Shown here one piece after another: positions 3,421 through 11,939 of a stretch of DNA of 23,729 nt. The notes under the pieces are model-generated. The model was not told where the DNA came from. It worked only from the letters and a program-made list of their open reading frames with translations, and ran no database searches. The translations under genes and the position numbers were made by a program. Source of the DNA: a virus; the IMG/VR virus record IMGVR_UViG_3300044726_000001, positions 1 through 23,729 of that record; one strand, written 5' to 3'. Every line of letters starts with the position of its first letter. Within the stretch, counting starts at the first letter, position 1.

Positions 3421-3948
3421 ATGACTATGAGACAGACAGCAGAAGAGAAGAAGGACTTGGAACTGGATGCAGCCAAGCAGCACAAGCCTATGGTCAAGAT
3501 GGTGAAGTGTGCTGAAGATGATCCGAAGTGTGCTCCAGAGGAAGCCCTAGACTACGACGAGGAGATGACCTATGCCTTCCCCGAGGTGAATCCCGGAGCG
3601 AGGCCACTGGGGGGCAGGATACTGGTTCAGCTCAAGCGGATCAGGGCTACCAAGAAGGGATCACCGATCATCATGCCGGGTTCCTATGTCGAGGCAGAGA
3701 AGTACCAGAACATGGTTGGGAAGGTGATCGCTATCGGGCCTCTGGCATTCAAGAAGCGTGACTCGATGGAACCGTGGCCTGAGGGATCGTGGTGTGAGAT
3801 TGGCGACTACCTTAGAGTGCCGAAGTGGGGTGGGGATCGGTGGGAGGTTCCATTCCATGATGGGCTGGTTTCTTTCGTGGTGATGAACGATCACGAGATC
3901 ATCGCAGCTATCACTGGCAATCCACTTGAGATGAAGGCGTACTACTAA
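3421..3948 (+). CDS. GroES/Cpn10-like phage co-chaperonin
   Basis: The 175-residue protein carries a recognisable GroES pattern after a 60-residue charged N-terminal extension: PLGGRILVQL (62-71), then a loop TKKGSPIIMPGS (77-88) in the place of the GroES mobile loop, then GKVIAIGPLAF, GDYLRVPKWGG, and a final strand VVMNDHEIIAAI (about 153-164). In GroES the loop tripeptide IVL docks on GroEL; here I83-I84-M85 is at the matching place. Known phage analogues such as T4 gp31 cap GroEL to fold the capsid protein. Placement between portal and scaffold fits that role. The body is longer than GroES (about 97 residues) because of the N-terminal extension and an insert before GDYLRV. ATG 3421 has no spacing to the GAAAG upstream, so the ATG at 3427 may be the true start. 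Fold assignment is by eye. Confidence 0.72.
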   Translation: MTMRQTAEEKKDLELDAAKQHKPMVKMVKCAEDDPKCAPEEALDYDEEMTYAFPEVNPGARPLGGRILVQLKRIRATKKGSPIIMPGSYVEAEKYQNMVGKVIAIGPLAFKKRDSMEPWPEGSWCEIGDYLRVPKWGGDRWEVPFHDGLVSFVVMNDHEIIAAITGNPLEMKAYY

Positions 3949-6099: not shown

Positions 6100-7014
6100 A
6101 TGTCAGCACCTATGAATAGTATGGACTTCCGCTCGATAGTTGAGCCGATCCTGAATGAATGCTTCGATGGACTGTATGACCTACGGAAGGATGAGTGGTC
6201 TAAGGTCTTCCGCGAAGAGCAAGGTATTCCCCGTAACTACCACGAAGAGCCAGTATTGTATGGCTTCCCATCTGCTCCTGAGATGCCTGAGGGAACTCCG
6301 GTCACCTACCAACAAGGTGGTGTGCTGTTCCTCAAGCGTTATGTCTACCGTCCATACGGCATGGCATTCGCTCTGACCAAGGTGCTCGTTGAGGATGGCG
6401 ACCATATCCGTATCGGTTCCACGTTCTCCCAGCACTTGGCTCAATCGTTGATCGACACGAAGGAAACACTGTCGGCTAACGTGATCAATCGCAGCTTCAA
6501 CCCGAACTTCATCGGTGGCGATGGCGTGAGCTTGATCAGTACCCAGCATCCTATCTCCCGTGGCGTACTCAGCAACCAGCTCAACACTGCTGCTGCACTG
6601 TCCCAGACCTCGCTTGAGCAGATGCTCATTCAGGTTCGGTTGGCAGAGGACAACACAGGCAAGAAGGTAATCATCACTCCACAGCAACTGGTAGTTCATC
6701 CCGGCAACATGTTCCAAGCCGAGGTGATCATCAACAGCGTACTCCGGACTGGTGGAGCTAACAACGACCTGAACCCGATCAAGTCCACTGGCAGCTTGCC
6801 TAAGGGTGCTGTTGTGATCTCTCGCCTGACCTCGCCAACTGCTTGGTGGGTACAGACTGACGCTCCTCAGGGCATGAAGCTGATGATGAGACGTAAGCTG
6901 GAGAAGACCTTGGAAGGTGACTTCCAGACTGACTCGATGCAGTACAAGGCCACAGAGCGTTATGACGTGGGCTGGACTGACTGGAGAGCAATGTGGGGTA
7001 CTCCCGGTCTGTAG
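6100..7014 (+). CDS. Major capsid protein (HK97 fold)
   Basis: The 304-residue protein starts after AAGGAG at 6086-6091. It contains the features expected of HK97-type shell proteins: an N-terminal helix (FRSIVEPILNECFDGLYD), an extended-loop region with YGFPSAPEMPEG, a spine-helix-like region (HLAQSLIDTKETLSANVINR), and a P-domain/A-domain stretch with ITPQQLVVHPGNMF and a late GWTDWRAMWG. The VVHP segment and the 'S-T-QHPISRG' part resemble Mu-type head subunits. Size and place, after scaffold and decoration genes, fit. There is no cleavable N-terminal delta domain, consistent with a separate scaffold. A 143-base gap with a hairpin follows. Confidence 0.88.
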   Translation: MSAPMNSMDFRSIVEPILNECFDGLYDLRKDEWSKVFREEQGIPRNYHEEPVLYGFPSAPEMPEGTPVTYQQGGVLFLKRYVYRPYGMAFALTKVLVEDGDHIRIGSTFSQHLAQSLIDTKETLSANVINRSFNPNFIGGDGVSLISTQHPISRGVLSNQLNTAAALSQTSLEQMLIQVRLAEDNTGKKVIITPQQLVVHPGNMFQAEVIINSVLRTGGANNDLNPIKSTGSLPKGAVVISRLTSPTAWWVQTDAPQGMKLMMRRKLEKTLEGDFQTDSMQYKATERYDVGWTDWRAMWGTPGL

Positions 7015-8599: not shown

Positions 8600-10723
8600 A
8601 TGGAAGGCTACAAGAAGATGCCACGGTCGGGCATAGCACATATGCAAACAGAGGGAGTGTCGACGGCTCCCATCAAGAGGTCTGCTCCCAAGTCTGCGGC
8701 TAAGGCCAAGGGCTACAAGAAGGGCGGGGCAGTCAAGAAGGCTGGTGGTGGAATGATGAGTATGCTCCCCATTCCAAAATCCAGAGAAGCAGAGGAAATA
8801 GCGGAAGGTGAATCTCCAGCCAAGCCATCTGCTGCTGCTCGTCGGAAGGCAATGAAGCTCAAGCCTAAGGTCAAGCCTAAGCTCGATGTGATGATCGCTA
8901 TCGGCAAGGGTAAGAAGGAGGGTGGTAAGGTCAAGAAGTACGCTGATGGTGGTGCGATAGAGGACTTGGTTGCTCGTCGTCAGGCATCTCGTGGACAGGC
9001 TCCAGCTCCACAGGCTCCTGCTGCTCCGGCTCCACAAGCACCGACACAACCTCCACGTGCCATGTTCGGTGATGCAGCCAGACAGGTAGCCGATCAATTC
9101 CAGCAAGGTGGTGGCAATCCATCTAGGACAGCAGACTTATGGAGACAGCTACGAGGGGAAGGTGGTAATCAACTCCCACCACCTAAGTATCTTGGCAATG
9201 GTAATTATGAAGGTGGCGATACATCAAATCCTGATCTCGACTTTTGGGCTAATCGAGGAGGAGGAGGGGGTGGTGATGGTGGCATGGATGGTTGGGGTAG
9301 CTTCGAGCCGTGGCAAGGTGGCGCACTTCCTCCCGGCTATCATGGCCCCGGTGATGGAGTAAGTGGCCCTATCCGTGGTGGTCGTGGTCGTGGTCGCGGC
9401 AACCAACTAGGCAGACTGATAGGTGGAGTGGGTAAGCAACTTGGTACAGCAATACCTGAAGAACCTCTGACTCGGGAATCTGCTCTGGCTAAGGTCAGGA
9501 AGGGCATAACGGGCCAGAAGGATGGCGGTAAGGTTGACTGCAAGAAGGAAGGCGGAGTAGTAAAAAAAAAGTCTAGTGCCATGCCCGTGTCAAGAGTAGA
9601 GGACACTGGCTTCAAGTCCATGACCAAGATGAAGAGCAGCATGTCAGGTAAGAGTGCTGCTACTGGTCACGTCCAGAAGTTGGCTACTGGAGGCCGGGTA
9701 CAGCGTCTGGCTGAGGGTGGTCAGTATCAGTACGAGAAAGACCCTGCTGAGTCTGCTGATGCCTTCAACAAGAGGATGGCTACAGCAACGATGGCTACCG
9801 ATACCTACAAGATGCAGAATGATCCTGCTCAAGCAGCACAAGCCAAAGCATGGATGGATGAATTTCGTCGCGTAAACAATATGCCTGCTGGTAGCAAGTC
9901 TGATGCTGTTGGTGATATGCAATACTGGAAGAAGATTGTCGCCAATCAACAGGCCAAGCTGAATGATCCTAATCAGGGATACCGATTACCCGGTGATACC
10001 AATATCAGGCTACCTCATGCTATGGAGGCTGGCGGTACTGCCCCGTACATAACATTGGCACAGGCGCAGGAGATGGCTAAGACCAATCCTGAGATCGCTA
10101 ACCTCATCAAGACTCAGCTACCAGCGACCAATATGTTCGGCAAGGATCGTGGTGTAGGCCCTGCTTCTACCAACTTGGACTTGGCTAAGGATATCCGTCA
10201 GTACGCTGGTGGTGCTGGCCCATCCAAAGACCCGTGGACATTCGCTGATCAAGGACAGGGGGCAGATACTGGCTCGGCAGCGACACCATCCGGGCCAAGC
10301 ATGGAAGGGTTCCTGAAGCTGATCAATGATCGTCGGGCTACTAGGAACATGCCTCCACTGACCTCGTTGAGTCCTACACCTGATGCGTCTCAACCACCTC
10401 CAGCAACTACGCAGCCTCCACCTGCTACGACCCAGCCTCCTCCAGCGACTCAGACTCCTCCGGGAACTGGTCAGCCTCCTCCTAATGGTGGCTATGGTGG
10501 GTACGATTGGTACGGGCAGAACAATGGCTCGTTCGGTGGCTTCAGTGGTGGGCCTATTGGATTCTTGGATCGACCCAACAAGTACGTGCCTAATCAGGCT
10601 CGAGTGAGTGGTGGGCGACTGGTTCAGGGTGCTAATGGGCAATGGGTTCCTCAACAAGCTGCTACTGCCCAGACCGTCCCGGCTCAGAAGAAGGGTGGCA
10701 GAGTTAGATCGAGGGCCAGATAA
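8600..10723 (+). CDS. Large low-complexity protein with Lys-Gly-Gly motifs
   Basis: ATG follows GGGAG at 8588-8592. The 707 residues contain scattered copies of a K-x-G-G-x-V type motif: GYKKGGAVKK near the start, EGGKVKKYADGGAI, KDGGKVDCKKEGGVVKKK before residue 325, TGGRVQRLAEGG, and KKGGRVRSRAR at the very end. Between them are Pro/Ala/Gln-rich and Gly/Arg-rich linkers, including repeated QPPPATT (10391-10483) and a GRGRGRG stretch. Only residues about 370-590 look like an ordered helical part. No enzyme motif is visible. It lies between head and connector genes. An A9 run forms a possible frameshift site that would give a 325-residue product. Similar KKGG repeats are common in phage proteins of unknown role; nucleic acid or protein binding by basic repeats is a guess. 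Confidence 0.65.
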   Translation: MEGYKKMPRSGIAHMQTEGVSTAPIKRSAPKSAAKAKGYKKGGAVKKAGGGMMSMLPIPKSREAEEIAEGESPAKPSAAARRKAMKLKPKVKPKLDVMIAIGKGKKEGGKVKKYADGGAIEDLVARRQASRGQAPAPQAPAAPAPQAPTQPPRAMFGDAARQVADQFQQGGGNPSRTADLWRQLRGEGGNQLPPPKYLGNGNYEGGDTSNPDLDFWANRGGGGGGDGGMDGWGSFEPWQGGALPPGYHGPGDGVSGPIRGGRGRGRGNQLGRLIGGVGKQLGTAIPEEPLTRESALAKVRKGITGQKDGGKVDCKKEGGVVKKKSSAMPVSRVEDTGFKSMTKMKSSMSGKSAATGHVQKLATGGRVQRLAEGGQYQYEKDPAESADAFNKRMATATMATDTYKMQNDPAQAAQAKAWMDEFRRVNNMPAGSKSDAVGDMQYWKKIVANQQAKLNDPNQGYRLPGDTNIRLPHAMEAGGTAPYITLAQAQEMAKTNPEIANLIKTQLPATNMFGKDRGVGPASTNLDLAKDIRQYAGGAGPSKDPWTFADQGQGADTGSAATPSGPSMEGFLKLINDRRATRNMPPLTSLSPTPDASQPPPATTQPPPATTQPPPATQTPPGTGQPPPNGGYGGYDWYGQNNGSFGGFSGGPIGFLDRPNKYVPNQARVSGGRLVQGANGQWVPQQAATAQTVPAQKKGGRVRSRAR
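9562..9610 (+). promoter_or_regulatory. Candidate programmed -1 frameshift site (dnaX-like)
   Basis: Nine A's (9562-9570) plus G make the in-frame slippery heptamer A AAA AAG at 9565-9571. Upstream, AAGGAAGG and GGAG (9545-9557) resemble the stimulatory Shine-Dalgarno of dnaX. Downstream, after 6 bases, GCCA (9578-9581) and GTGTC (9587-9591) can pair with GACAC (9602-9606) and TGGC (9607-9610), forming a stem with a 5-base bulge. A -1 slip meets TAG at 9574-9576 after one codon, giving about 325 residues. A9 could also cause transcriptional slippage. Untested. Confidence 0.45.
10391..10483 (+). repeat. Pro-rich QPPPATT tandem repeat inside the KKGG protein
   Basis: Four to five successive units read QPPPATT, QPPPATT, QPPPAT, QTPPGTG, QPPP. 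The codons differ between units, so the peptide, not just the DNA, appears to be maintained. It is a probable flexible linker. Confidence 0.75.
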
Positions 10724-10881
10724 TGCCAGCCAAGAGTAAGGCTCAACTACGACTCATGGCAGCAGTGGCTACCAATCCGAAGCTGGCGAAGGCCAAGGGT
10801 ATTCCTCAGAAGGTGGGCAAGGAGTACCTCGCTGCCACTCCAACCACCAAGGGACTACCTACGAAGATCAAGAAGAGGTAA
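10723..10881 (+). CDS. Small basic protein with SKAQ-type start (52 residues)
   Basis: ATG overlaps the preceding TAA by one base (TAATG), and TAA at 10879-10881 ends a 52-codon frame. The product begins MPAKSKAQLRLMAAVATNP, continues LAKAKGIPQKVGKEYLAAT and ends in basic KIKKR. Proteins with this opening, SKAQ-R-M, and a later IP-VGKE-segment are widespread in phages and in some bacterial genomes, always without a known function. It is strongly basic (11 Lys) and would be soluble. Its place between the KKGG protein and the first connector suggests it is a virion or DNA-binding accessory, but this is inference. Confidence 0.72.
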   Translation: MPAKSKAQLRLMAAVATNPKLAKAKGIPQKVGKEYLAATPTTKGLPTKIKKR

Positions 10882-10883
10882 TC

Positions 10884-11939
10884 ATGCCATTCTCAGGAAC
10901 AGTCAGCCAGACAGTGATTGATGTCATGCAGCTCATCGAACACGCGGTCAGACGCTGCGGTAAGTTCGCGGAGGAGCTGACGGTCGAACAGATACAGTCT
11001 GCCCGTGAATCGCTCTACTTCCTGCTGTCGCACATGGGGAACCGTGGCATACAGTACTGGGCAATCCAGAAGACTGTTATCGGCACGATCTCGCACAAGT
11101 ACACCTACTACCTGCCTCTCGGCTCAATAGACGTGCTCAATGCCTTCTATCGCACGATGAACCGGAATACAGGCATAGCGATCATGTCCGATGGTGATGG
11201 TCAGCTTACTCTGGATGGTGATGTGAGTACCAAGTGCGTACAGGCCATAGCTGATGGGTTCATCGGGGTAAGCCTACCTGAGCCTGTCTACGTCACATCG
11301 GTCGGGATACTGGCAGGGGAATCGTCCCCTTTTACCATTGTCATCGAGTACTCCGAGGATGGTGTCACGTGGAACCTCCTGCAAGCTGTTCCCAAGACAA
11401 TGTGGGTGGACGGTCAATGGCTCTGGTATGACATCGATCCCGGCAAGAATGTCAAGTACTACCGGATACGCGAGACTGCTGGTGGCTTCCTGAATGTCCG
11501 TGAGCTGTTCATGGGGAGCAATCCATCCGAGATCACCCTCTCTCGACTTAACCGGGATGACTACACCAACCTCCCGAACAAGACATACCCGAGCCAGCAA
11601 CCTGTCCAGTACTGGATGGATCACACGATCAACGTACCCAACATTCAGGTGTGGCCCGTACCCAACAACTACTTCACTCAGATAGTGGTGTACTGCTCCC
11701 GGTACATCATGGACGTGGGTGATCTTCAGGGTGAGATCGAGATACCCCAGAGATGGTATGAAGCGATCATATTCTCACTGGCCCACAAGATGTCACTGGA
11801 GCTGCCGGGTATCGACTTGCAGAGAATCCAGTATCTTGAGGTACAGGCAGAGAAGCACAGGGGTGAAGCCGAGGATGCTGAGTACGACCGTAGTCCGATC
11901 CGGTGGCTACCTAACGTCAGATGCTACACGAAGATATAG
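10884..11939 (+). CDS. Head-tail adaptor-like protein with discoidin-like insert
   Basis: The 351-residue protein starts with a helical part typical of phage connector proteins (VIDVMQLIEHAVRRCGKF, then ESLYFLLSHMGNRGIQYW). Residues about 130-212 look like a discoidin (F5/8C) type beta sandwich: VTSVGILAGESSPFTIVIEY, DGVTWNLLQ, VKYYRIRETAGGFLNVRELF. The core resumes with LSRLNRDDYTNLPNKTYPSQ, INVPNIQVWPVPN and EIEIPQRWYEAIIFSLAHK. That R-DY---P-K/WPVP/IPQRW pattern recurs in podovirus connector or tail proteins. The insert may bind carbohydrate or another tail subunit. It contains palindrome copy 3. Adaptor assignment is by resemblance and order. Confidence 0.62.
   Translation: MPFSGTVSQTVIDVMQLIEHAVRRCGKFAEELTVEQIQSARESLYFLLSHMGNRGIQYWAIQKTVIGTISHKYTYYLPLGSIDVLNAFYRTMNRNTGIAIMSDGDGQLTLDGDVSTKCVQAIADGFIGVSLPEPVYVTSVGILAGESSPFTIVIEYSEDGVTWNLLQAVPKTMWVDGQWLWYDIDPGKNVKYYRIRETAGGFLNVRELFMGSNPSEITLSRLNRDDYTNLPNKTYPSQQPVQYWMDHTINVPNIQVWPVPNNYFTQIVVYCSRYIMDVGDLQGEIEIPQRWYEAIIFSLAHKMSLELPGIDLQRIQYLEVQAEKHRGEAEDAEYDRSPIRWLPNVRCYTKI
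11315..11330. repeat. Dispersed palindrome, copy 3 (inside the adaptor gene)
   Basis: AGGGGAATCGTCCCCT has 6-bp perfect arms around ATCG. It lies in the discoidin-like part, where it is read A-GGG-GAA-TCG-TCC-CCT (Gly-Glu-Ser-Ser-Pro). This copy is one base pair longer than the others. Confidence 0.7.

Follow-up and report, generated by a model that had tools for sequence, protein, structure and literature searches.

Does a run of nine adenines followed by a guanine (A9-G), set in frame within a lysine- and glycine-rich repeat gene, let a tailed phage make two proteins from one gene? The question arises from a 23,729-base fragment of an uncultivated tailed phage held as an IMG/VR record, the whole of which is referred to here as the window. 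Its plus strand carries, in order, a portal-like gene, a GroES-like gene, a scaffold-like gene, the capsid gene (6100-7014), two small genes, a KKGG-repeat protein gene (8600..10723; a zero-frame ORF of 707 amino acids with syntenic KKGG genes in relatives), a 52-residue ORF and a tail-adaptor gene (10884..11939). A preliminary description of this DNA had proposed that the KKGG gene contains a -1 frameshift signal of the dnaX type that yields a truncated protein beside the full-length one.

The KKGG-repeat gene and its putative slippery site

The KKGG protein had no match in Pfam and PHROGs family searches, nor in a tblastn search against 50,697 phage records. Its location between the capsid and the tail adaptor suggests a head or connector role and would agree with the virion protein that the preliminary description proposed. 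The adaptor, which we used as the syntenic anchor for finding relatives because it serves this purpose better than the rapidly evolving KKGG gene, is recognized by weak SU10_adaptor and phrog_12985 matches and by homologues annotated 'tail adaptor'. Directly 3' of the KKGG gene, the 52-residue ORF (MPAKSKAQLRLMAAV..., 10727-10882) has a single Pfam match, to MBT, which is weak and probably spurious. The GroES-like co-chaperonin gene (3421-3948) lies upstream of the scaffold and capsid genes, and the gene at the same position is annotated as co-chaperonin GroES in the related loci L028 and L246-L250.

The A9 run (9562..9570, plus strand) is the sole run of six or more A's in the window, and the zero-frame codons spanning it (9560-9571) read GTA AAA AAA AAG. 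They contain the slippery heptamer A_AAA_AAG at 9565..9571, overlapped by A_AAA_AAA at 9562-9568. In the -1 frame, the heptamer is followed by GTC and then by TAG (9574..9576), a stop also reached by inserting one A; the predicted product has 325 residues and ends in KKKV. Loss of one A leads instead to TAG at 9597..9599 in the +1 frame, such that stops follow A9 after one codon (-1) and eight codons (+1). Re-reading the sequence bore out the positions, the reading phase and the predicted 325- and 707-residue products of the preliminary description, as well as the stop reached upon loss of an A. The only other in-phase X_XXY_YYZ heptamers in the main genes of the window are G_GGG_GGC (3609), C_CCT_TTT (11327) and G_GGG_GGA (20299).

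Comparison with the relative L005 reveals purifying selection on the zero frame downstream of A9, with a dN/dS of 0.23 from codon 326 and 0.095 over codons 353-510, and the full-length KKGG protein is therefore used. The gene is also mosaic: about 140 Gly/Pro-rich residues (170-305; window 9100-9510 compared with L005) are largely absent from close relatives, and these relatives are almost the same as the window in the blocks around A9 and over codons 525-585.

Chance expectation for the window site

Lysine is encoded by AAA in 22 of 315 Lys codons of the window, and we modeled chance by resampling codons in 20 genes while keeping the proteins unchanged. At least one A_AAA_AAR arose in 22% of simulations across the 20 genes and in 8% for the KKGG gene alone. 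The in-frame heptamer is thus unremarkable by itself and constitutes weak evidence. The same does not apply to A9, which appeared in only 0.125% of the simulations (P about 0.001). When single A9 genes were tested, the early -1 stop had a P of about 0.13 and the distance to the +1 stop a P of about 0.4, both of them unremarkable.

The proposed stimulators fared less well. A Shine-Dalgarno (SD)-like purine tract, AAGGAAGGCGGAG, is indeed present 5' of A9 (9545..9557), and its predicted duplex with the anti-SD sequence has an energy of -8.9 kcal/mol. However, 98% of synonymous shuffles pair as well or better, meaning that the tract is no stronger than the KKEGG codons would give and does not stand out as a stimulator beyond what the protein dictates. 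As for the stem suggested 3' of the heptamer as a second stimulator, the best hairpin (GCC-C-GTGTC / GACAC-T-GGC, 9583..9610) begins 11 nt downstream of the heptamer, compared with 5-9 nt in the dnaX type, and its stability does not exceed that of shuffled sequences (z -0.35), 30% of synonymous shuffles being at least as stable.

A slippery heptamer in the KKGG genes of related phages

Three adaptor scans and a capsid scan yielded about 240 loci with 177 KKGG genes, of which 92 were non-redundant. A canonical site, GGxxKKx[YF]AxGG, occurs in 54 of the 92. Among the first 58 KKGG genes, A_AAA_AAG was observed 37 times against 12.8 (s.d. 3.4) expected from synonymous shuffles. No enrichment was seen in 345 other genes of these loci (7 observed, 9.4 expected), and together the shuffles and this control rule out KKGG codons alone as the source of the heptamers. 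All 54 canonical genes carry the heptamer, in unchanged codon phase, compared with 7.5% in synonymous shuffles. The first Lys is encoded by AAA in every one of these, and the second is divided evenly between AAA (27) and AAG (27). Six different residues occur before the two lysines (Ala, Thr, Leu, Pro, Ser and Ile), yet in 54/54 sites the codon for this residue has A as its last base. Because the preceding residue varies while the third base stays A, A_AAA_AAR is conserved at the nucleotide level beyond the needs of the protein. Wobble positions adjoining the heptamer vary freely (GGT/GGC, GCT/GCC/GCG); this variation, the changing preceding residue with its fixed third A, and compensatory changes rule out simple inherited identity.

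We also searched all loci examined for the downstream stem alone. The distinct KKGG-gene sites recovered all carried A_AAA_AAR except three with G_GGA_AAG, and the search returned no genuine cassette with a non-slippery sequence. Stem-pattern matches in KGG-rich frames of L285 and L068 were set aside, as their context differs and they look like chance. In one lineage (L100, L180 and L182), G_GGA_AAG occupies the same place and phase, with the stem kept, and a model search indicated a similar arrangement in L110. With this change the residues become LGK instead of AKK and the A run is lost, but slipperiness is preserved; G_GGA_AAG is highly shift-prone in E. coli (PMC5009743, Atkins review).

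The cassette is widespread, with at least 120 contigs found in one pattern scan, and all relatives bearing it are uncultivated contigs or genomes. In distant isolated phages found through the capsid (HTVC027P, HTVC023P, CRP-901, QDWS535, MinM2 and others), no KKGG gene with a comparable A_AAA_AAR cassette was seen, and no relatives came up when bacterial genome contigs were scanned with the capsid and the adaptor. Six genes (L028, L072, L077, L130, L140 and L148) have a second in-frame GTA AAA AAG 42-44 codons past the canonical cassette, in most cases reaching a -1 stop one or two codons later, making a third truncated product possible. With just a handful of genes carrying it, this second heptamer was rejected as a general feature.

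A covarying stem and other cassette elements

The family stem comprises 7-8 bp: its 5' arm, GCNRCGG(G), starts 6 nt past the heptamer, and its 3' arm, C(C)CGTNGC, follows after a further 22-25 nt. The third base pair of the stem is formed between the wobble positions of an Ala codon and a Val codon. When genes were selected by protein motif only, these bases pair in 48 of 48 (GCC-GTG 14, GCT-GTA 22, GCG-GTC 11, and one G-U, GCT-GTG), and in 85/85 when redundant genes are included. A separate pattern scan that left both covarying bases free gave pairing at all 70 sites with a located 3' arm (30 G-C, 21 C-G, 19 U-A); by eye, five of the six sites without a scored 3' arm pair with a G-U at the stem end. 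We regard the motif-chosen set (48/48) and the free-base scan (70/70) as the fair tests of covariation, in preference to an alignment count in which 95.6% of cells paired, against 28-46% with the partner slid, since the rows of that alignment had been chosen for pairing.

Other elements depart from chance in the same 54 genes. Mean fold energy is -22.7 kcal/mol compared with -17.2 in synonymous shuffles, and upstream anti-SD pairing, at -9.59 versus -8.58 kcal/mol, lies beyond all 100 shuffle sets, although the effect is modest. A -1 stop falls within nine codons in 54/54 genes, whereas shuffles reach 42% (maximum 56%). In a search with a covariance model of the cassette, the coding strand matched at most of the loci, with E values reaching about 0.002 in divergent members; an Rfam search gave no match. 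The family stem is missing from 11 of 53 canonical sites, and these may use another structure. Several genes with the heptamer and no 8-bp stem (L060, L069, L113, L140, L163 and similar) have a hairpin, TGACG..GGCA/TGCC..CGTCA, about 26 nt downstream.

The window clade and its relatives

The preliminary description named conservation of the heptamer in relatives as a check. Three close IMG/VR relatives have the identical A9 in an intact ORF (the run is the same in L001/L002/L003/L005), two of the three being the same as each other in the KKGG gene. As these contigs come from other samples, A9 is not an assembly slip. The run lies, however, in a block of about 135 nt (about 46 codons) with a single change among the close relatives, and because this block is nearly identical throughout, conservation there says little about selection. 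In the nearest sister clade (L006, L007-L014), A_AAA_AAR is absent altogether.

A covariance model of the family cassette (R1) found no match in the window or the sister clade. In the window subclade, the corresponding KKYADGG motif, at codon 111, is encoded GTC AAG AAG. The canonical cassette has been lost from the subclade, with A9 sitting at another KKEGG motif. Two relatives, L045 and L047, have the canonical cassette plus, 43 codons on, GTA AAA AAA AAG with a -1 stop after one codon, an arrangement that shows how the window layout could come about.

A9 sites in other phage KGG proteins

Scanning IMG/VR for GGNGGNNNNGTAAAAAAAAAG showed that further phage KGG proteins contain this A9, followed one or two codons later by a -1 stop. 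The contexts included GGFVKKKFADGG in several genomes and GGSVKKKANGG in genomes of 59-65% GC. At these A9 sites, the stop is contributed by an Ala codon, which is GCT in 24/24 cases, compared with 36% elsewhere in the same genes. Because the matches were selected for A9, they show recurrence rather than conservation. In L401, L403, L407, L420 and L424, phages of 59-65% GC, A9 lies at GG[SH]VKKKANGG and both other frames, -1 and +1, stop early; on this sequence layout, they are good candidates for programmed transcriptional slippage.

A further phage protein family has GGFVKKK[FL]A[DE]GG encoded as GTA-A8-AG with a -1 stop after two codons (L388, L390, L391, L392, L398, L413, L434-L437, L445 and L447). 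The part following the site differs strongly among its members, one of which has a HELLH-type metallopeptidase motif, as if C-terminal domains could be exchanged behind the site while the N-terminal part stays constant.

Mechanism and alternative explanations

At the level of the family, the proposal of dnaX-type slippage with a truncated KKGG product is strongly supported by the heptamer, the spacer, the covarying stem and the -1 stop. We consider it very probable that these genes undergo -1 ribosomal slippage on A_AAA_AAR, aided by the stem and probably by anti-SD pairing, toward an early stop; a fraction of ribosomes would shift at the cassette and then terminate. The cassette elements and the selection acting on them across the family are read from the sequences, and from these we infer slippage, its rate and the use of both forms.

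The window itself presents a more mixed picture for the same proposal. In its favor are the rarity of A9 together with the immediate -1 stop, the purifying selection on the zero frame further downstream, the three relatives, and the recurrence of such sites in KGG proteins; against it are the stimulators, which do not exceed chance, the absent match to the family model and the sister clade free of A_AAA_AAR. On balance, and counting slippage by either route, the A9-G of the window is probably a programmed slippery site from which the KKGG gene gives two co-expressed proteins. In-frame reading of A9 would produce the 707-residue form, and a -1 event there would produce the 325-residue form, which lacks the C-terminal 382 residues. 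The site would then be a divergent version of the recoding that related phages conserve in this gene. Kinship favors the ribosomal route. Slippage by the polymerase on A9 is nonetheless quite possible, given the nine A's, the stops in both other frames and the lack of stimulators that stand out; it would lead to the same product and may contribute.

Polymerase slippage could also be the whole explanation, with A's added or dropped at A9 such that A8 and A10 mRNAs encode short products and the ribosome plays no special part. We hold this purely transcriptional account to be somewhat unlikely, its probability forming a share of that given to productive slippage as a whole. Exactly nine A's with near stops in both other frames reproduce the layout of Thermus thermophilus dnaX (PMC1088944, PMC5009743). 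Transcriptional slippage needs no stimulators, in keeping with the lack of significant ones in the window, and unrelated phage KGG proteins, some from genomes of 59-65% GC, repeat the combination of A9 and early stops in both frames. However, the rest of the family carries A6G, A7G or G_GGA_AAG with a covarying stem, which fits the ribosome and is too short for efficient polymerase slippage, and the distance to the +1 stop is usual. The G_GGA_AAG sites with their stem speak against transcriptional slippage for the family cassette.

It is less likely still that A9 is a by-product of the lysine-rich KKGG repeat and that slippage, if any, is incidental. The heptamer alone is expected in a minor share of such genes (the 8% above), KKEGG codons give rise to the purine tract, the window stem is not significant, and the sister clade manages without A_AAA_AAR. 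Such an origin nevertheless sits poorly with the rarity of A9 given codon usage and with the slippage signals, backed by covariation, in the same gene of relatives; in many coding regions of bacteria, moreover, selection acts against long A runs (PMC1088944).

Two further explanations are very improbable. The A run and stem could form a frame-independent DNA or RNA signal, such as an antisense terminator, since the minus strand of most relatives reads as a hairpin, 6 nt and T6-7; but a 6-nt gap separates stem from T run, the window shows no likely minus-strand gene, the heptamer keeps its codon phase with -1 stops enriched, and GGGAAAG with the stem in L100, L180 and L182 destroys a terminator while keeping slipperiness. 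An internal start, in which the purine tract is a real Shine-Dalgarno sequence for a C-terminal product beginning, for example, at the in-frame ATG at 9581, founders on a spacing of about 23 nt, which is too long, and on the amino acids that already account for the tract.

Comparison with known frameshifts

In E. coli dnaX, A_AAA_AAG with a -1 stop one codon later gives a truncated product beside the full one (tau/gamma) (PMC5009743). The window shares the heptamer, the position of the stop and a predicted truncated form, and the family adds the stem 6 nt downstream and upstream anti-SD pairing better than expected. The KKGG gene differs in being a phage gene that encodes no DNA polymerase subunit. 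In the family, the stem also encloses the 22-25-nt region holding the -1 stop, and many members have A_AAA_AAA or G_GGA_AAG as the heptamer; the window, for its part, has A9 and no significant stimulators. Thermus thermophilus dnaX obtains its shorter product by transcriptional slippage on nine A's with stops near in both other frames (PMC1088944, PMC5009743). The window resembles it in its in-frame A9, the two nearby stops and a predicted shorter product, whereas the six- or seven-A runs, or GGGAAAG with structure, of the wider family point to ribosomes.

A further parallel is csoS2 of alpha-carboxysomes, in which a -1 frameshift to an early stop occurs at 50% efficiency with no 5' SD stimulator and yields CsoS2A/B (PMC5009743). 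There, a shell-associated protein of an icosahedral body is made in two lengths, as is predicted for the KKGG protein, to which CsoS2 is unrelated. Phages also offer examples of -1 frameshifting, and lambda G/GT uses the heptamer G_GGA_AAG, the one seen in L100, L180 and L182. The KKGG gene does not conform to the G/GT type, as its -1 frame stops at once and it lies between capsid and tail adaptor; the lambda shift, in a gene ahead of the tape measure, extends the product into another frame, while the KKGG shift would truncate it, in a gene that is not a tail chaperone. In T3/T7, frameshifting likewise gives two proteins from a single structural gene, the capsid gene 10, but there the frameshift product is the longer one.

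Implications

Truncating frameshifts are hard to find, as they offer no new reading frame to compare (PMC1088944). Here, synonymous covariation exposes such a frameshift in a widespread group of uncultivated phages. Truncating -1 frameshifts are already known from dnaX and csoS2; their occurrence in a phage gene located between the capsid and tail-adaptor genes appears to be undescribed, and our literature search, mostly of papers available without subscription, found no truncating -1 frameshift described for a phage gene of this kind.

We tentatively advance a broader proposal, to which we give somewhat less than even weight: that many uncultivated tailed phages set the long/short ratio of a KGG protein of the head or connector region by truncating slippage. 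One gene family would use both dnaX solutions: ribosomal slippage, in which a covarying stem accompanies A_AAA_AAR or G_GGA_AAG, and slippage of the A9 type (the window clade and L045/L374). A9 at GGxVKKK would have emerged as well in KGG proteins with no apparent kinship to this family, including some at 59-65% GC. By analogy with tau/gamma or CsoS2A/B, slippage perhaps serves to supply long and short forms in a set proportion for building the head or connector.

The analysis predicts a second, unannotated product of the gene beside the tail adaptor in these phages, and the family offers a ready reporter cassette. It also raises the question of why head or connector assembly needs two lengths of one lysine- and glycine-rich repeat protein. 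If the proposal is true, the KKGG gene would provide a phage counterpart to tau/gamma and CsoS2A/B.
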